A stretch of DNA of 64,000 nucleotides from Desulfomonile tiedjei DSM 6799. GTDB taxonomy: Bacteria; Desulfobacterota; Desulfomonilia; Desulfomonilales; Desulfomonilaceae. How positions within the stretch are numbered: position 1 is the stretch's first letter; the number at the start of each line of letters is the position of its first letter. The notes under the pieces are model-generated. The model saw only the letters and a program-made list of their open reading frames with translations, was not told the origin of the DNA and made no database searches. The translations under genes and the position numbers were made by a program. Positions 16,729 to 24,707 of the stretch are shown here, one piece after another. The stretch is from the NCBI RefSeq assembly GCF_000266945.1, contig NC_018025.1:2976001-3040000 (forward strand), given 5' to 3'.

Positions 16729-16791
16729 GAATGTGTTCGTCTCGTTTCTAACGGGGGCTTTACAGCATAAGAGCTAATTTACCAGACTATT

Positions 16792-16862
16792 CCCCCCTTT
16801 TGTAAAGGGGGCCAGGGGGAATTTTGATCTAAACCACTGAAATCCCCCTTTAGAAAAGGGGG
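16792..16862. repeat. Palindromic CCCCCTTT/AAAGGGGG repeat, double hairpin
   Basis: Two hairpins in tandem: CCCCCTTT-TGT-AAAGGGGG (16793-16811) and CCCCCTTT-AGA-AAAGGGGG (16844-16862). Between them GGGGGAATTT and AAATCCCCC can also pair, giving an alternative fold. Same class as the element at 48181-48226. It lies between two minus-strand genes, where it may stop or stabilise transcripts. Confidence 0.75.
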
Positions 16863-16933
16863 ACATTGATGGCCTTCTTGACGCTCGGTGCCCATTCAAG
16901 TAACTGCGACCCTAAGTTAGCGCATATGAGGCT

Positions 16934-17617
16934 TTACAGCCTGGTGCTTCCTTCGGCAAGATCTATCAGGCCTTGTCGATCTTTTATCGTGATGGACCGG
17001 CCGTCGATGGCGATCAATTCCTGTTTGGACATCTTGGCGAGAATCCTGGAGAGCGTCTCCGGGATAGTCCCCAGCAGCCCTGCCAATTGGCCTTTTGGCA
17101 TTTCCAGTTCAATATCGTCCTTGCCCTGTTGCTGATTGCTCAAATAAAGCAGATGAGCGGCAAGTCTGCCGGGAACCTCCTTCAATGAGAGATCGTCAAC
17201 GAGAACGGTGAATCTCCGGAGCCTGCGAGAAAGCACTGCCAGCATATTCAGAGCCAGGGAAGGATTATTCTTGATCAACTCTACAAAAGCCGTCCTCGGG
17301 AAAAAGATAAACCTGCTGTCCGCCAATGCTGTTGCATGCGCGGGGAACGGTCTTCCTTCGAATACCGGCACTTCACCAAAAGGCTCGCCCGGTCCGAAGA
17401 GATGGAGGATTTGTTCTTTACCGTCCGGCGAAATTTTAAAGATTTTGACTTTGCCGGATGTCACAATAAAAAAGCCATGTGCTGACTGGCCTTCGGAGAA
17501 AACTACCCGGCCTCGTTCGAAGGATTTTTCCAGGGCTATTCCCGCAAGATCCTTTAACTGATCCGGCGGTAATCCTTCAAAGAGCGGTATCTTGGAGATC
17601 TTTTGAATCAGTTCCAC
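16934..17617 (-). CDS. Crp/Fnr-family regulator, HcpR/DNR-like
   Basis: 227 residues: a cyclic-nucleotide-binding-type sensor domain (about 10-125), a dimer helix (about 118-145) and a C-terminal winged helix-turn-helix whose recognition helix contains TIPETLSRILAKM. The E..SR spacing is that of FNR-type proteins reading TTGA/TCAA half-sites. There is no Cys in the protein, so it cannot carry the FNR oxygen-sensing cluster; haem-based NO sensing, as in DNR and HcpR, is the likely alternative. It is divergent from the siroheme gene, and a TTTGAC-N4-GTCAAA palindrome lies 34-49 nt before its own start. Together with Hcp and NO reductase downstream, this points to a nitrosative-stress regulator. 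Confidence 0.88.
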   Translation of the reverse strand: MELIQKISKIPLFEGLPPDQLKDLAGIALEKSFERGRVVFSEGQSAHGFFIVTSGKVKIFKISPDGKEQILHLFGPGEPFGEVPVFEGRPFPAHATALADSRFIFFPRTAFVELIKNNPSLALNMLAVLSRRLRRFTVLVDDLSLKEVPGRLAAHLLYLSNQQQGKDDIELEMPKGQLAGLLGTIPETLSRILAKMSKQELIAIDGRSITIKDRQGLIDLAEGSTRL

Positions 17618-17650: not shown

Positions 17651-17666
17651 TTTGACTTACGTCAAA
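17651..17666. promoter_or_regulatory. HcpR/FNR-type operator 1
   Basis: TTTGAC-TTAC-GTCAAA, a perfect 6-bp inverted repeat with a 4-nt centre. Its centre (17658.5) is 29.5 nt before the start of TATATT at 17688, placing it at about -41.5 for the siroheme gene. It also lies close upstream of the divergent regulator gene, where it could mediate autoregulation. Confidence 0.8.
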
Positions 17667-17687
17667 GACGTAGCTCTCAGGAATGCC

Positions 17688-17693
17688 TATATT
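17688..17693 (+). promoter_or_regulatory. -10 hexamer for the siroheme protein gene
   Basis: TATATT followed by TTAG. With a start point near 17700 the leader is about 140 nt. Spacing to operator 1 is the same as at the hcp promoter. Confidence 0.6.
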
Positions 17694-17840
17694 TTAGTTT
17701 GATCGACCCTTTGCTCATAAGGGAACGTCACCCTAAGAAATATAGCTCAACTCGAGCTTCAAAAAAACTCGTAACCGTGAATTCGCAATCATTGCAGATC
17801 GAGGTCCCTGGAATGGGGAACACTAATCGGAGAAGCAGGT

Positions 17841-18671
17841 ATGAAATGGAATGAAGATGCAGAGACCGCAATAGCGAAAGTGCCGTTCTTTGTCCGGCGC
17901 CGCGTTCGGAAACGGGTCGAAGAAGAAGCTGCTCGTCGCGGTTCCGATCGCGTGACTATGGATCATGTTACCGCGTGCAAACGGAAGTACCTGGAAAACA
18001 TGGATGAAGAAGTAAAGGGATTTCAAGTTGAATCCTGCTTCGGCCCAAGTGGTTGCCCAAACAGAGTTTTGCAGGAAGACGGCCTCGGGAATGAACTCGA
18101 GAAGCTCTTCTCGGATGAAAAGATGAGGGATTTCCTGAAATCCAAAGTGAGCGGCCCCCTCAAATTGCATCACGAATTCCGCGCATGTTTGTCGGACTGT
18201 CCCAACGCGTGTTCGCGACCGCAGATTGCAGATCTGGGGATTATCGCCGCAGCGCGGCCATCGATTGTGAGCTTTCATTGTACCGGATGTGCAGCGTGTG
18301 TGGCAGTTTGCAAGGAAAGAGCCATAGAATTGGATTCTCTCACCGGGGAAGCGCGCATTGACTTCGATAAATGTCTATCTTGCGGCCAATGCGTGAAAGT
18401 CTGCCCTGCCGGCGCGCTTGAAACGGATGTGAAAGGTTACCGCATATTGCTTGGGGGAAAGCTTGGCCGACATCCGCAATTGGCGCAAGAAATAGAAGGA
18501 ATATGGTCAAAAGAACAAGTGGTGCGCGTAGTGAAGAAATGTATCGAACACTATAAAACTCACAATTCCGAGGGGGAACGTTTTGGAGAAGTGCTGAACG
18601 CGACAGGCTTGGATTTCCTGTCAGATCGGGATTCCGATCCAGAAGAACAAGCGAAAGTGAAAAAAATCTGA
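17841..18671 (+). CDS. PCP_red domain / siroheme-[4Fe-4S] / 2x[4Fe-4S] ferredoxin fusion
   Basis: 276 residues. The N-terminal 45 residues (KVPFFVRRRVRKRVEEEA) match the small PCP_red domain found at the end of protochlorophyllide reductase subunits. Next comes a low-molecular-weight sulfite/nitrite-reductase-like part with the siroheme-cluster signature C-x5-C (CFGPSGC) and C-x3-C (CLSDCPNAC). Two ferredoxin clusters follow: CTGCAACVAVC and CLSCGQCVKVC. It should bind siroheme and three Fe-S clusters and reduce nitrite, sulfite or a related N/S oxide in the cytoplasm. The operator and hcp neighbour favour a nitrogen-oxide substrate. Start ATG at 17841 is preceded by GGAGAAGCAGGT. Confidence 0.85.
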   Translation: MKWNEDAETAIAKVPFFVRRRVRKRVEEEAARRGSDRVTMDHVTACKRKYLENMDEEVKGFQVESCFGPSGCPNRVLQEDGLGNELEKLFSDEKMRDFLKSKVSGPLKLHHEFRACLSDCPNACSRPQIADLGIIAAARPSIVSFHCTGCAACVAVCKERAIELDSLTGEARIDFDKCLSCGQCVKVCPAGALETDVKGYRILLGGKLGRHPQLAQEIEGIWSKEQVVRVVKKCIEHYKTHNSEGERFGEVLNATGLDFLSDRDSDPEEQAKVKKI

Positions 18672-18675
18672 ATTG

Positions 18676-18689
18676 TTGACTTAAGTCAA
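18676..18689. promoter_or_regulatory. HcpR/FNR-type operator 2, before hcp
   Basis: TTGAC-TTAA-GTCAA, a perfect 5-bp inverted repeat with a 4-nt centre. Its centre (18682.5) is 29.5 nt before TATTCT at 18712, the same geometry as operator 1. Placed at -41.5 it would act as a class II activator site for hcp. Confidence 0.82.
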
Positions 18690-18711
18690 AGCAAGCAAAT
18701 CGACAAGAATT

Positions 18712-18717
18712 TATTCT
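18712..18717 (+). promoter_or_regulatory. hcp: -10 hexamer for hcp
   Basis: TATTCT followed by TTAG, about 70 nt before the hcp ATG. The implied start is near 18724, leaving a leader of about 63 nt. Confidence 0.6.
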
Positions 18718-18786: not shown

Positions 18787-20427
18787 ATGAAAGAAGACAT
18801 GTTTTGCTATCAATGTGAACAAACAGCTTTCGGAACGGGATGCACCAAGGTCGGCGTTTGCGGAAAATCGGCCGAAGTCGCCAATCTCCACGATTTACTC
18901 ACCTATGCCCTGCAAGGGCTCTCGTTGTATGCCGTCGAGGGGCGCAAAGTGGGAGTTGTGGATCGAGAAGCGAACGTGTTTACCGTGCAAGCTATGTTTT
19001 CCACGCTGACCAATGTGGATTTCGACGAAGATCGTTTCGTGCCTCTTGTCAGACAGGCGGTTGCCTTAAGAGAATCCCTCAAGGAGAAGGTGAGAGCAGC
19101 CGGAGGTAAAGTCGATTTTTCCGAAGATGCGGCAACGTTTCAACCCGCCGGAGACAAAGCCGGAATGATCGCGCAGGGACAACAGGTGGGATTTCGCGAT
19201 GACGGCAAAGAGAATCCCGATATACGCTCTCTGAAACACATCCTCATCCTCGGCCTCAGAGGAGTTTCGGCATATGCCGATCACGCACAGATTCTCGGAC
19301 AGGAAGACGATGCAGTGTATGCATTCGTTCACGAGGGACTGGCTGCTACGCTTCGGCACGATCTTGGCCTGGAGGACTGGGTAGGGCTGGTTCTCAAGTG
19401 TGGAGAGATCAATCTCAGGGCGATGGAACTGCTGGATGCAGGCAACACCGGGATTTACGGACATCCTGTACCGACCAAAGTCCCGCTCGGCCATCGTAAA
19501 GGTAAAGCGATCCTCGTTTCCGGGCACGATCTGAAAGATCTGGAAATGCTGCTCCGGCAGACTGAAGGAAAAGGAATCACGATCTACACCCACGGAGAAA
19601 TGCTTCCGACCCACGGCTATCCGGAACTGAAGAAATATCAGCATTTCTATGGGCATTACGGAACAGCGTGGCAGAACCAGAGAAAAGAGTTTGCCGAATT
19701 TCCCGGCGCGATTCTCATGACCACAAACTGTATCCAGAGACCCAAAGAAACCTATATGGATAACATCTTTACCACAGGGCTGGTTGGCTGGCCCGGTGCA
19801 AAGCACATTGGAGATAAGGATTTTTCACCGGTGATCCAAAAGGCTCTCGAAATGCCGGGTTTCAGCGACGACGTGAATGGAAAAGCAGTCACCTGCGGTT
19901 TCGGGAGGAATGCTGTCATGTCCGTGGCAGGCGCTGTAATCGATGCAGTGAAACAGGGAGCCATTCGGCACTTCTTCCTTGTCGCAGGCTGTGATGGCGC
20001 AAAACCGGGAAGAAACTACTATACCGAATTCGTGGAGAAAGTTCCCCAGGATTGCGTGGTGCTCACCCTCGCATGTGGAAAATTCCGTTTCTTCGACAAA
20101 GACCTGGGAGATATCGGAGGCATTCCACGGCTCCTGGATGTCGGGCAGTGCAATGACTCGTACTCGGCAATTCAGATAGCCGTTGCTCTCGCCAATGCGT
20201 TTAACGTAGGCGTCAATGAACTGCCTCTCTCCATGGTCCTGTCGTGGTACGAGCAGAAAGCAGTCGCGATTCTTCTGACCCTGCTACACCTGGGAATCAA
20301 GGGAATCCGTCTCGGACCGAGCCTGCCTGCGTTTATTAGCCCGAATGTGCTGGATGTGCTCGTGAAGAATTTTGACATCAAACCTATCAGCACCCCGGAT
20401 GAGGATTTGAAGGCGATCCTGGGGTGA
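18787..20427 (+). CDS. hcp: Hybrid cluster protein (Hcp)
   Basis: 546 residues, full length. The N-terminus carries C-x2-C-x8-C-x5-C (CYQC...CTKVGVC), the spacing of Hcp from strict anaerobes and not that of enterobacterial Hcp. Further ligands to the Fe4S2O2 hybrid cluster are seen in the C-terminal half, including VAGCDGAK and LACGKFRF. Hcp reduces NO to N2O (earlier described as hydroxylamine reduction) in the cytoplasm. Start ATG at 18787 follows AGGAGGGAAACAAA. The -41.5 operator upstream and the HD and Fe-S genes downstream suggest an operon hcp-HD-ferredoxin, with the Fe-S protein as a likely electron donor. Confidence 0.96.
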   Translation: MKEDMFCYQCEQTAFGTGCTKVGVCGKSAEVANLHDLLTYALQGLSLYAVEGRKVGVVDREANVFTVQAMFSTLTNVDFDEDRFVPLVRQAVALRESLKEKVRAAGGKVDFSEDAATFQPAGDKAGMIAQGQQVGFRDDGKENPDIRSLKHILILGLRGVSAYADHAQILGQEDDAVYAFVHEGLAATLRHDLGLEDWVGLVLKCGEINLRAMELLDAGNTGIYGHPVPTKVPLGHRKGKAILVSGHDLKDLEMLLRQTEGKGITIYTHGEMLPTHGYPELKKYQHFYGHYGTAWQNQRKEFAEFPGAILMTTNCIQRPKETYMDNIFTTGLVGWPGAKHIGDKDFSPVIQKALEMPGFSDDVNGKAVTCGFGRNAVMSVAGAVIDAVKQGAIRHFFLVAGCDGAKPGRNYYTEFVEKVPQDCVVLTLACGKFRFFDKDLGDIGGIPRLLDVGQCNDSYSAIQIAVALANAFNVGVNELPLSMVLSWYEQKAVAILLTLLHLGIKGIRLGPSLPAFISPNVLDVLVKNFDIKPISTPDEDLKAILG

Positions 20428-20483
20428 GTCGGTATGGGGCGGCGATCAGTCGCCCCTCTTCAAAGGGAAGGGAGGACGAGACC

Positions 20484-21245
20484 ATGAAGTGCCCGGGCCA
20501 AGATCCCAGATTCTGGAAGTTCGATGCAATATTCGATGCAGAGTGTCCGAAGTGCGGTTCCACGGTGGAATTCTTCAAAGATGAAACCCGACGCAGATGC
20601 AAGAAATGCGGGCACCAGGTGTTGAACCCCAAGATGGATTTCGGCTGCGCGACGCACTGCAAATTCGCCGAGCACTGCTTCGGAGATCTTCCTCCCGAAT
20701 TGGTGAAGCAAAAAGAGGATCTCTTCAAAGACCGCGTCGCCGTCGAGATGAAGATGTATTTCAAGAACGATTTCAAGCGTATCGGACATTCTGCCAAGGT
20801 GGCTCGCTATGCCGAACGCCTTGTCCAGGAAGAAAAGGGAGATCCGGCAATAACACTCTCAGCGGCTTACTTGCATGATATCGGAGCTCGTCAGGCTCAG
20901 GAGAAATACAAAAGCGCAGACGCTGAGTATCAGGAGCTTGAGGGACCCCCCGTTGCCAGGGAAATACTCTCCAAACTGGACGCCGCTGAGCCTCTTATTG
21001 AGGAAGTGTGTGACATCATTGGACATCATCACCATCCGAGGCCGAATGAATCAACAAATTTCAAGATAGTGTACGACGCGGATCTCATTGCCAATCTGGA
21101 AGAGAAACAGAAGAAATCCTCTCTGGGGCCGGATCGACTCATGGAACAGTTCGATTCGCAATTTCTAACCAAAAGCGGACGGGAACTCGCCCGCAGCATC
21201 CTCTTCAATGAGGGAAACGGCAACGCTCCATCGAATCAGGCGTGA
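20484..21245 (+). CDS. Zinc-ribbon HD-domain phosphohydrolase-like protein
   Basis: 253 residues. An N-terminal zinc ribbon (CPKC...CKKC, about 13-36) and a further Cys group (CATHCKFAEHC, about 50-60) precede an HD domain with GHSAKVARYA, YLHDIGA (the HD pair) and IIGHHHHP. HD proteins cleave phosphoesters, often of nucleotides; here the substrate is unknown. Start ATG at 20484 has GGGAGGACGAG upstream; an earlier in-frame start at 20424 overlaps hcp and lacks a ribosome site. Its place 56 nt after hcp suggests a conserved role in the nitrosative-stress unit. Confidence 0.85.
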   Translation: MKCPGQDPRFWKFDAIFDAECPKCGSTVEFFKDETRRRCKKCGHQVLNPKMDFGCATHCKFAEHCFGDLPPELVKQKEDLFKDRVAVEMKMYFKNDFKRIGHSAKVARYAERLVQEEKGDPAITLSAAYLHDIGARQAQEKYKSADAEYQELEGPPVAREILSKLDAAEPLIEEVCDIIGHHHHPRPNESTNFKIVYDADLIANLEEKQKKSSLGPDRLMEQFDSQFLTKSGRELARSILFNEGNGNAPSNQA

Positions 21246-21278: not shown

Positions 21279-22025
21279 ATGAAAGTAAAACGTAAGATAA
21301 TAGAGATAGATCAAGAACTGTGTAATGGCTGCGGCCAGTGTATTACTTCCTGTGCCGAGGGCGCCTTGAAAATAGAGGATGGAAAAGCGAAGCTCGTAGC
21401 GGAAAAATATTGTGACGGACTCGGAGCCTGCCTGGGAGAATGCCCCACCGGCGCTCTACAGGTGATCGAACGGGAATCGGAGGATTTTGACGAAGCAGCG
21501 GTGCACGAACACTTGGAAAAGATGAAATCAAAGGCTCAGCCGGAGGAAAATCTTGCATGCGGCTGCCCGTCTGCAGCACTCATGAGCTTTTCAAAAGTCT
21601 GCGCGAGCACAGAGGAAACCACAGGAAACGTCAGTGCTGTTTCAGCCCTGAGCCATTGGCCGGTGCAAATTCGTCTCGTTCCGCCAACAGCTCCGTTTCT
21701 CAAGAATGCCGATCTCCTGGTGGCAGCAGACTGCACTCCTGTGGCCTATCCCATGTTTCATAGAGATTTCCTCGCGGGAAAAACCGTCATGATCGGATGC
21801 CCCAAATTCGATGATGCTCAAGCCTACGTTGAGAAATTTGCTCAGGTGTTTCAGGCTAACAACATTAGAAGCATCACCGTGGTTGTAATGGAAGTCCCCT
21901 GTTGTTCCGGATTGCCTCTTATTGTTCGTAAAGGGATGCAAATGGCCGGAAAAGATATTCCAATGGAACAAATTGTGATCAGTGCAAGAGGTCAAGTGAT
22001 CAGAAAACAAAAACTCGTTGCCTAA
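21279..22025 (+). CDS. [4Fe-4S] ferredoxin-type protein of the hcp cluster
   Basis: 248 residues. The N-terminus holds CNGCGQCITSC and a second, altered set CDGLGACLGEC, typical of two-cluster proteins found next to hcp. A middle CGCPS motif and a C-terminal alpha/beta part (KTVMIGCPKFDD, VVVMEVPCCSGLP) follow, with Cys residues that could bind another cluster. Probably an electron carrier to Hcp. Ribosome site AAAGGAG lies about 7-8 nt before the ATG; it begins 33 nt after the HD gene, so co-translation is likely. Confidence 0.85.
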   Translation: MKVKRKIIEIDQELCNGCGQCITSCAEGALKIEDGKAKLVAEKYCDGLGACLGECPTGALQVIERESEDFDEAAVHEHLEKMKSKAQPEENLACGCPSAALMSFSKVCASTEETTGNVSAVSALSHWPVQIRLVPPTAPFLKNADLLVAADCTPVAYPMFHRDFLAGKTVMIGCPKFDDAQAYVEKFAQVFQANNIRSITVVVMEVPCCSGLPLIVRKGMQMAGKDIPMEQIVISARGQVIRKQKLVA

Positions 22026-22105
22026 TAGAAAGAATACTAATTCTTACGAAGATTATAGCAAATGACAGAATTTTTGTCCGATTGCGAAAAGTGCTTCTTA
22101 AAAAT

Positions 22106-22190
22106 TGGTGGGTGTCGGCCTCCGTGCCGGCACATTTTTAAAAACAAATCAACCAGTTCGGTCCGGCAGGGGACGCCGGCCCCTACCGTT
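22106..22190 (+). repeat. Dispersed repeat B, copy 2 (partial)
   Basis: Begins GGTGGGTGTCGGCCTCCGTG and contains GGCAGGGGACGCCGG, matching the left two thirds of the copy at 15741-15850, in the same orientation. The ATCTTGTATTGAAGCATG end is absent. Confidence 0.65.
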
Positions 22191-22338
22191 CCTCACAACG
22201 GGTAGGGTGTTCAAAAGGTCAGAAATTATGTCAACTGCTATAGTATTGTCGGTGAGGGAAGAGAAGAAAACGTACTAGACCTTTTCAATTAATGCGTTCG
22301 GCTGTCATGCACATTAGCGGAAATCACTGTCCGATATG

Positions 22339-22393
22339 CCCGTCGACTACCAATGTTCCCCGTCAGGAATTTGGTCTGCTCGACGGGTTTTTT
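22339..22393 (+). terminator. Intrinsic terminator in the norZ leader
   Basis: CCCGTCGA (22339-22346) pairs with TCGACGGG (22380-22387), followed directly by six T. The 33-nt loop can extend the stem (TTCC with GGAA, CCAA with TTGG). It ends only 37 nt before the norZ ATG and more than 300 nt after the previous gene, so it looks like a leader attenuator or the end of a small RNA, not an operon end. Confidence 0.7.
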
Positions 22394-22430
22394 GTTTATG
22401 CTCGTACCAGTTGATCCGGGAGGGGTGCTT

Positions 22431-24707
22431 ATGAACATGAATGCTTTGAAGTGGGCGGCTATTCTCACCTTTGTCATATCTCTCATCGTTCTCATTTTGG
22501 GAGGGGTCTTCACGCAAGGAGAGCTTCCCCCATATCCGGGAAAGGTCGTCGGACCGAATGGAGAAGTCCTGTTTACCAAGAAGGATATTTTGGCCGGTCA
22601 GGATGTTTTCCAGCAAAGGGGGCTGATGGATCACGGGAGTGTCTGGGGGCACGGTTCTCAGAGGGGACCCGAATTCTCTGCGACCAGTCTGCGACTCGAA
22701 AGTGAGGTCGTCAGAGATTATGTGAGCAAACAGGATTACGGAAAAGGATATGCCGAACTCGACGATCTCCAGAAAGAGATTGTGGACTTGAAGACTGTCA
22801 GGGAAATACGAACCAATCGATACGATCCAGCCACGAATACTTTGACTCTGACGGAATCCCAAGTCCTTGCTCTTCAGAAAGTCGTCGAATTCTGGAACAC
22901 CATGTTCGAGAAAGGAGAAGTACGATACGGATTTCTCCCGAACACCATATCGTCACCCCAGGATAGACTGGAAATAGGCCGATTCTTTTTCTGGACAGCG
23001 TGGGTTGCATCTACGAATCGGCCGGGGAAAACGTATTCTTTTACCAATAATTGGCCGGCAGACAGGACCGTAGGCAATGTTCCCACAGCAGAGACCTATC
23101 TGTGGAGTCTGGGGGGCATTCTGGCGTTGTTTATCTCGCTGGGCATTTTCATCTTCATGGTACATCACTACGGTATCTGGTACGGGCCTGCACGAGGAGT
23201 AGAACTCGGCCAGAGACTCATCGACATGCCCCTTACTTCCAGCCAGCGGAAAGCAGCGAAGTTTTTTCTCGTGGTTATCCTGCTGTTTTTGATGCAGACG
23301 AATTTCGGCGGTCTCCTGGCTCATTACACCATTCACCCGGCAAGTTTCTATTTCCAGTTTATCGCGGACTGGATACCTTACAGTTGGGCCAAAACATGGC
23401 ACCTGCAGCTCGCCGTATTTTGGATAATGACGACATGGATTGCTTCGGCCATCTACATCGCGCCCATTATGGGAGGCATAGAGCCGAAAAAACAGGGATT
23501 AACGGTCGAATTGCTGTTCATTGCAGTCCTTCTGGTTGCAGGAGGGAGTCTCATTGGAGAAGTGGCCGGAATTAAAGGCTATCTTGGAGATATGTGGTTC
23601 TGGTTCGGCCATCAGGGATGGGAATTCCTGGAGCTTGGAAGGGTCTGGCAGCTTCTACTCTTCTTTGGATTAATTGCATGGCTGATCATTGTGTACAGGC
23701 CGATTTCCAACCATATCAGATTGAAGCACCGAGATGAGTTTACCTCGCTCCTTATCTTTTACGTCATCAGTTCGGTGCTCATCGTATTATTCTTCGGCTT
23801 CGGATTGCTGTACGGCAAGGGCACACATTTGAGTGTTGCAGATTATTGGCGATGGTTCGTGATACACATCTGGGTGGAAAGCATTTTCGAATTTTTCGGG
23901 ATCGCCGTGATTTCGTTGCTTCTCGTCAGTCTGGGTCTTGCCTCCGCCAGAGGCGCTCTCATGGTGGCATACTTTACTGCAGCCATCACTTTTCTCAGTG
24001 GAATTCTCGGAACCGCACACCATTTCTTCTGGTTCGGGCAGCCTTCTTTTTGGCTCGCGGTTGGATCGGTTTTCTCTTCTCTCGAACCGATCCCGCTCTT
24101 CGGTCTGGTCGTGAGAGGTCTCCTGGAATACAGATCTATCACTAAAGAAGGGGTTGATTTTCCCTACAAGTGGCCGCTGTATTTCCTTGTGGCATCATCT
24201 TTCTGGAATTTCATGGGGGCTGCGGTGTTCGGGTTCTTGATCAATCTCCCGGTGGTCAATTATTTCGAACATGGGACGTACCTGACCATGAATCACGGAC
24301 ATGCTGCGCTGTTTGGCGTTTTCGGCATGCTCTCCATAGCTCTCTTGCTTTTCTCCTGGCGAGGCATGGTAGATAAAGCTCACTGGAACGACAAAATACT
24401 CAAGGTGAGTTTCTGGGGTTTCAACGGCGGCCTTGGACTCCTCACATTCGGCACGTTGTTTCCGGTAGGAATTCTCCAGACCTGGACGAGCTACAGCCAA
24501 GCGCTTTGGGTCGCAAGGGACGCATCATTCTTCGAGAGACCGTTTGTTCAAGTCGTGGGGACGTTACGAGTGATACCCGATCTGATCATCATCCTGGTGG
24601 GGGTTGTACCGCTCTTCTATTTTCTCTTCACAACCTATCCGTACCTCAAAGCAGTGGGAATCAAGGAGGGTGAATCTGTGTGGGAACGTCTGGGAATGGA
24701 ATTGTGA
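22431..24707 (+). CDS. norZ: Quinol-dependent nitric oxide reductase (qNOR)
   Basis: 758 residues: an N-terminal periplasmic extension after the first membrane helix, as in single-subunit qNOR, then about 13 further helices of the haem-copper-oxidase fold. Family marks include HIWVE (His479, Glu483) and GTAHHFFWFG (His530/His531, FeB ligands) in place of a CuB site, plus NHGHAALFGVFGM near residue 622. It reduces 2 NO to N2O at the membrane using quinol. Start is the ATG at 22431, with GGGAGGGG about 6 nt upstream; the open frame to 22353 covers the terminator hairpin and is not coding. It is the last plus-strand gene of the NO-response island and the only one with an attenuator-like leader. 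Confidence 0.95.
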   Translation: MNMNALKWAAILTFVISLIVLILGGVFTQGELPPYPGKVVGPNGEVLFTKKDILAGQDVFQQRGLMDHGSVWGHGSQRGPEFSATSLRLESEVVRDYVSKQDYGKGYAELDDLQKEIVDLKTVREIRTNRYDPATNTLTLTESQVLALQKVVEFWNTMFEKGEVRYGFLPNTISSPQDRLEIGRFFFWTAWVASTNRPGKTYSFTNNWPADRTVGNVPTAETYLWSLGGILALFISLGIFIFMVHHYGIWYGPARGVELGQRLIDMPLTSSQRKAAKFFLVVILLFLMQTNFGGLLAHYTIHPASFYFQFIADWIPYSWAKTWHLQLAVFWIMTTWIASAIYIAPIMGGIEPKKQGLTVELLFIAVLLVAGGSLIGEVAGIKGYLGDMWFWFGHQGWEFLELGRVWQLLLFFGLIAWLIIVYRPISNHIRLKHRDEFTSLLIFYVISSVLIVLFFGFGLLYGKGTHLSVADYWRWFVIHIWVESIFEFFGIAVISLLLVSLGLASARGALMVAYFTAAITFLSGILGTAHHFFWFGQPSFWLAVGSVFSSLEPIPLFGLVVRGLLEYRSITKEGVDFPYKWPLYFLVASSFWNFMGAAVFGFLINLPVVNYFEHGTYLTMNHGHAALFGVFGMLSIALLLFSWRGMVDKAHWNDKILKVSFWGFNGGLGLLTFGTLFPVGILQTWTSYSQALWVARDASFFERPFVQVVGTLRVIPDLIIILVGVVPLFYFLFTTYPYLKAVGIKEGESVWERLGMEL

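Follow-up and report, generated by a model that had tools for sequence, protein, structure and literature searches.

Conserved TTGAC-N4-GTCAA operators and a predicted HcpR1-type class II activation system at the hcp locus of Desulfomonile tiedjei DSM 6799

A CRP/FNR regulator of the HcpR1 type in Desulfomonile tiedjei DSM 6799 very probably activates a siroheme-type gene and an hcp-HD-frdX gene run in class II fashion from operators at −41.5, and would repress its own gene. Binding, activation and autorepression, along with NO as the signal and heme as the cofactor, are what we infer for a locus lying within a 64 kb stretch (2976001-3040000) of the 6.5 Mb contig NC_018025.1 (the whole stretch analysed, hereafter the window; positions are those of the window unless given for the genome). 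The predicted dimer (encoded at 16934-17617) would bind both TTGAC-N4-GTCAA operators and would probably sense NO through bound heme. Centred at −41.5 of sigma70-type promoters that have a good −10 element and a poor −35 element retaining only a G, it would activate RNA polymerase in a class II manner at both operators. Operator 1 would thereby switch on the siroheme gene and operator 2 the hcp-HD-frdX run, while a dimer on operator 1 would also cover the putative promoter of the regulator gene and hold down its expression.

Gene content and operators of the locus

The regulator (227 aa; 16934-17617, minus strand) was identified from an orthologue alignment and from Pfam matches above cut-off to cNMP_binding (PF00027) and HTH_Crp_2 (PF13545). 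It contains no cysteine and is encoded divergently beside operator 1, as the initial annotation had described for a Cys-free Crp/Fnr protein. At 16788-16870, between genes, lies a cccccttttgtaaaggggg / aaatccccctttagaaaaggggg-type inverted repeat that may represent a small mobile element.

The remaining genes all lie on the plus strand. The siroheme-type protein (17841-18671) was recognised by profile matches to PCP_red and NIR_SIR and has two 4Fe-4S motifs; CX5C (CFGPSGC) and CX3C (CPNAC) motifs are present, and its nearest solved chains are F420-dependent sulfite reductases. It is followed by hcp (18787-20427), encoding a hybrid cluster protein of the hydroxylamine/NO reductase family (NF003658, 844 bits against a cut-off of 367), and by the gene for an HD-domain protein, a recurrent hcp partner whose N-terminal region is rich in Cys (20481-21245; the start codon at 20481 was chosen within the open reading frame 20424-21245). 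Behind the HD gene comes that for a 4Fe-4S protein (21279-22025), which recurs in this position and is likely the FrdX counterpart. Further downstream is a gene for a quinol-type nitric oxide reductase (NorZ-like; 22353-24707; Pfam NorB_cytochrome_c-like and COX1). A search upstream of norZ for an operator of its own revealed none that was recognisable, and the gene might be reached via read-through. The interval between the 4Fe-4S gene and norZ contains a GC-rich inverted element (22080-22200; ggtgggtg...gccggcacattttt...), of which a close copy exists elsewhere in the genome (L206:1765-1830), making it a dispersed repeat. A second prismane/Hcp-family match was found in a 1108-residue open frame at genome positions 287795-289516, with no perfect operator nearby.

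Operator 1 (TTTGAC-TTAC-GTCAAA, TTTGACTTACGTCAAA; 17651-17666, plus strand, centre 17658.5) is common to the regulator and siroheme genes, and operator 2 (TTGAC-TTAA-GTCAA, TTGACTTAAGTCAA; 18676-18689, plus strand, centre 18682.5) begins 5 bases past the stop codon of the siroheme gene. They are the only perfect TTGAC-N4-GTCAA sequences in the window. Direct reading of the sequence bore out the initial annotation with respect to both palindromes, the −10-like hexamers TATATT (17688-17693, plus strand) and TATTCT (18712-18717, plus strand), and the identical distance of 29.5 nt from operator centre to hexamer, from which transcription starts are predicted at about 17700 and 18724. On the same strand, a G is located at +8.5 from each operator centre (17667 and 18691), corresponding to promoter position −33. 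The TTAG tetranucleotide that had been pointed out behind both hexamers is indeed present, yet it was found at only 4 of 95 comparable sites, which rules it out as a conserved element behind the −10; judged by these sites, its occurrence in both window promoters is a coincidence.

Conservation of the operators across orthologous loci

Orthologous loci were collected via protein similarity, not via the motif. They comprised 60 genomic stretches from the phylum, plus 80 named loci that a regulator search had returned. The exact motif preceded 38 of 65 hcp genes, 49 of 96 regulator genes and 20 of 71 siroheme genes by 300 nt or less, with counts rising to 48, 61 and 34, respectively, for the relaxed form TTGAY-N4-RTCAA. 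The 59 permuted half-sites that served as control gave 0-1 matches. Runs without hcp (L106, L109 and L110) have the operator before the HD gene instead. By these counts, both window operators are conserved regulatory elements. In a nearby locus of the same family (L105), operator 1 is ~390 bp from the siroheme gene, and because of this distance control of the siroheme gene is less certain there.

Promoter geometry

To describe the geometry, 95 non-redundant gene-facing sites were scored with a −10 matrix of rough E. coli-like frequencies set by hand, with 300 shuffles as control. The mean −10 score was +2.89 at an offset of +29.5 from the operator centre and negative at other offsets (shuffle maximum at any offset, −2.36). 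The best hexamer was located at +29.5 in 44/95 sites (≤10 in the shuffles), and TA...T occurred at this offset in 48 sites versus 2.3 expected by chance. The best single hexamer lies away from exactly +29.5 in over half of the 95 sites, and the −10 offset is 28.5 or 31.5 in some relatives. Because the −10 peak falls at +29.5, the operator centre is placed at −41.5. This conserved peak, the only one found, supports class II activation, and it upholds the earlier assignment of the two operators to the class II position.

Other features emerged unsought from the same alignment. These were a G at +8.5 (promoter −33) in 92 of the 95 sites (97%), a conserved A-rich tract that precedes the operator centre by 17-22 nt (−21.5 to −17.5), and an A in 60% of sites at +41.5, the predicted start position. 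With a 17-bp spacer, the G would occupy position 3 of the −35 hexamer; the −35 element thus looks degenerate yet retains its G. Together, the degraded −35 element and the conserved class II offset suggest that these promoters depend on an activator.

Palindromes with matching −10 offsets could in principle arise by coincidence, given that −10-like hexamers are frequent in AT-rich intergenic DNA and that sites with one mismatch are barely commoner in the genome than in the control. However, sites and offset are conserved across species while the permuted and shuffled controls are close to zero. Coincidence is thus scarcely credible and, as far as conservation can refute it, refuted.

The same positions could also be read as repressor sites. 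The regulator would then repress at both operators and be released by NO, similar to the model for HcpR2 of D. desulfuricans, for which derepression through an NO-damaged Fe-S cluster has been proposed (PMC5701242); that the operators overlap the −35 region would suit such a role. The regulator nonetheless has no cysteine to hold an Fe-S cluster, the −10 offset is the conserved one of class II activators, and the −35 element is degraded. We therefore consider repression at both operators unlikely, and class II activation by the HcpR1-type dimer the better description of the gene-facing promoters.

Alignment of 59 sites toward the regulator gene also yielded a −10-like signal, here weaker and lying at +15.5 to +17.5, with mean scores of −0.54 and −0.37 at +15.5 and +17.5, respectively, and a shuffle maximum of −1.86. 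An operator overlapping the putative promoter of the regulator at approximately −29.5 suggests autorepression of the regulator gene via operator 1, a suggestion that comes from the family and not from the window, where the regulator-facing −10 hexamer is poor.

Identity of the regulator

The recognition helix of the regulator reads PETLSR (pattern PExxSR), and P186, E187, S190 and R191 are invariant in 80/80 relatives. P186-E187 align to R180-E181 of CRP; the regulator thus carries the Glu 181 preceded by Ser or Pro at position 180 that characterises HcpR1, and Pro in place of the Arg of CRP. TTGAC-N4-GTCAA sites stand upstream of hcp and frdX-type genes, and the regulator gene is co-localised with hcp, both as expected of HcpR1. 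The cluster cysteines expected of FNR are missing from this protein, and cysteine is also absent in 52/80 relatives. The published HcpR motif wyTTGACnnnnGTCAArw matches the palindromes and the recognition residues fit (PMC1274295, PMC545781), in agreement with the resemblance to HcpR/FNR-type sites seen initially. By motif and recognition residues, the regulator matches the delta-proteobacterial HcpR1 class, a prediction dating from 2004-2005.

Rodionov et al. predicted the TTGAC HcpR motif, the regulator class and its hcp and frdX targets (PMC545781, PMC1274295), and tied the combination of recognition residues present in the regulator, with Ser/Pro at position 180, to this motif (PMC1274295). 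As far as the available sections of these papers describe it, the delta-proteobacterial HcpR1 regulon shares with the present locus the operator consensus, Pro 180 with Glu 181, and hcp and frdX-like targets, and differs in genus (Desulfomonile here); the HcpR1 targets listed at that time for Desulfovibrio include a putative sulfite/nitrite reductase with polyferredoxin (PMC545781, PMC1274295).

Among named proteins, those most closely related to the regulator come from Desulfomonile records. An AlphaFold monomer model (mean pLDDT 89, pTM 0.59) indicates the general CRP/FNR fold only, and fold similarity among CRP/FNR proteins is too general for deciding HcpR1 membership. A tree of regulators that contained no named HcpR1 proteins was mostly unresolved, and AU tests rejected neither grouping.

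Given that the TTGAY half-site is near the FNR/DNR box TTGAT-N4-ATCAA, the operators might instead serve another CRP/FNR regulator (of the FNR, DNR or NnrR type) encoded elsewhere. However, the regulator is the only full-length HTH_Crp_2 (CRP/FNR-type) protein found in the genome, which is 99.99% complete. One further HTH_Crp_2 match is a 92-residue open frame, and a PF00325 profile search of the genome gave no match. As the regulator gene also accompanies the operators across the phylum, control by another such factor is very unlikely, and the HcpR1-type protein at 16934-17617 is the preferred candidate.

Genome-wide regulon

The genome-wide scan for TTGAC-N4-GTCAA that the initial annotation had proposed returned 7 perfect places in 6.5 Mb versus 1 in the reversed control. 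With one mismatch allowed, counts were 174 versus 148, and only perfect matches are therefore informative. A refined consensus (TTGAYNYRNRTCAANG) was found at 8 places in the genome versus 0 in the control, and its best four sites, which have the TA centre of the family, are operators 1 and 2 and those at genome positions 434783 and 2250872. The regulon is accordingly small, as anticipated, with two candidate targets outside the window.

The site at 434783-434798 (TTTGACTTACGTCAAAGAC) matches operator 1 in core and flank and is located ~108 nt before a GAF and nucleotide-cyclase (adenylate/guanylate) gene, with TATTCT at +28.5 (hand count). The perfect site at 2250872-2250887 is ~98 nt before the gene for a protein with two CBS domains. 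The latter has an orthologue in a second genus (L218, 62% identity) that also carries this operator, and the CBS-domain gene is a candidate for a conserved HcpR target. CBS, cyclase and HD-domain genes are absent from the published HcpR1 target tables examined, in the sections available (PMC545781, PMC1274295).

Perfect sites at 1481867 and 4812781, which have no TA centre, and at 4915306, inside a coding frame, were taken as chance occurrences. Relaxed matches at 2426842, 2693983, 4114822 and 6005842 had no convincing downstream gene. In three relatives (L225, L226 and L228; G386, G403 and G404), the same operator was observed before or adjoining a gene whose product joins a cNMP-binding domain to a protein-kinase-like one.

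Sensing and comparison with known regulators

E. coli FNR is an activator with class II (−41.5) geometry and the half-site TTGAT, and senses O2 via an Fe-S cluster held by cysteines. The regulator is similar to FNR in its −41.5 geometry and related half-site but has none of the cluster cysteines, and an FNR-type Fe-S cluster is therefore excluded. P. aeruginosa DNR (PDB 3dkw), a heme/NO-dependent activator, shares the P-E-x-x-S-R recognition residues and shows 34% identity to the regulator across the structural alignment, the best among the PDB matches listed (Z 18.0, rmsd 7.7, 221 residues); at position 72, DNR has Glu and the regulator His. DNR controls denitrification genes at TTGAT-N4-ATCAA (PMC1274295).

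HcpR of P. gingivalis activates hcp on NO in a heme-dependent manner (PMC12750200). Its structure (PDB 9day) and the regulator model are alike in their CRP/FNR fold (Z 16.4, 218 residues, rmsd 11.4), although identity is only 21% and the P. gingivalis protein is a member of the HcpR2 branch, whose motif differs (PMC1274295). Its likely heme ligand, Met68, is placed by hand alignment close to Leu73 of the regulator, which has the invariant His72 instead. His72 occurs in all of the 80 relatives, but DNR, FNR, CRP and the cyanobacterial relative lack it; Met125 is found in 78/80. By analogy with P. gingivalis HcpR and DNR, heme is the likely cofactor of the regulator, with His72 as a hypothetical ligand, and known HcpR systems point to NO as the signal.

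The cyanobacterial relative (42% identity) is encoded near a qNOR gene bearing the same operator. On Acaryochloris plasmid pMB02 (L207:1089-5690), TTGAC-N4-GTCAA lies upstream of the qNOR gene, and a transposase gene separates qNOR from the CRP/FNR regulator gene, an arrangement resembling the published one of Synechocystis (PMC1274295).

Implications

The prediction of HcpR from operator motifs is two decades old, and we found few accounts of how its delta-proteobacterial TTGAC type acts at promoters. While the regulator type and motif were known, the alignments appear to make promoter detail newly visible: in the available sections of the open HcpR literature (PMC545781, PMC1274295), we found no description of the −41.5 spacing, the G at −33, the A-tract or the regulator-facing promoter. 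More tentatively, HcpR1 of the Desulfobacterota could be a distinct NO sensor that holds heme on the invariant His72 and not on the Met of P. gingivalis, and that works as a fixed two-sided switch, in which a single operator would serve both activation of the defence genes (at −41.5, the G at −33 being required) and repression of the regulator gene (at approximately −29.5). The invariant His72 offers a directly testable heme-ligand candidate. The conserved geometry yields exact predictions of start sites, with operator position separating activation from repression, and the combination of operator, G at +8.5 and −10 at +29.5 provides a search pattern for HcpR regulons in uncultured sulfate reducers.
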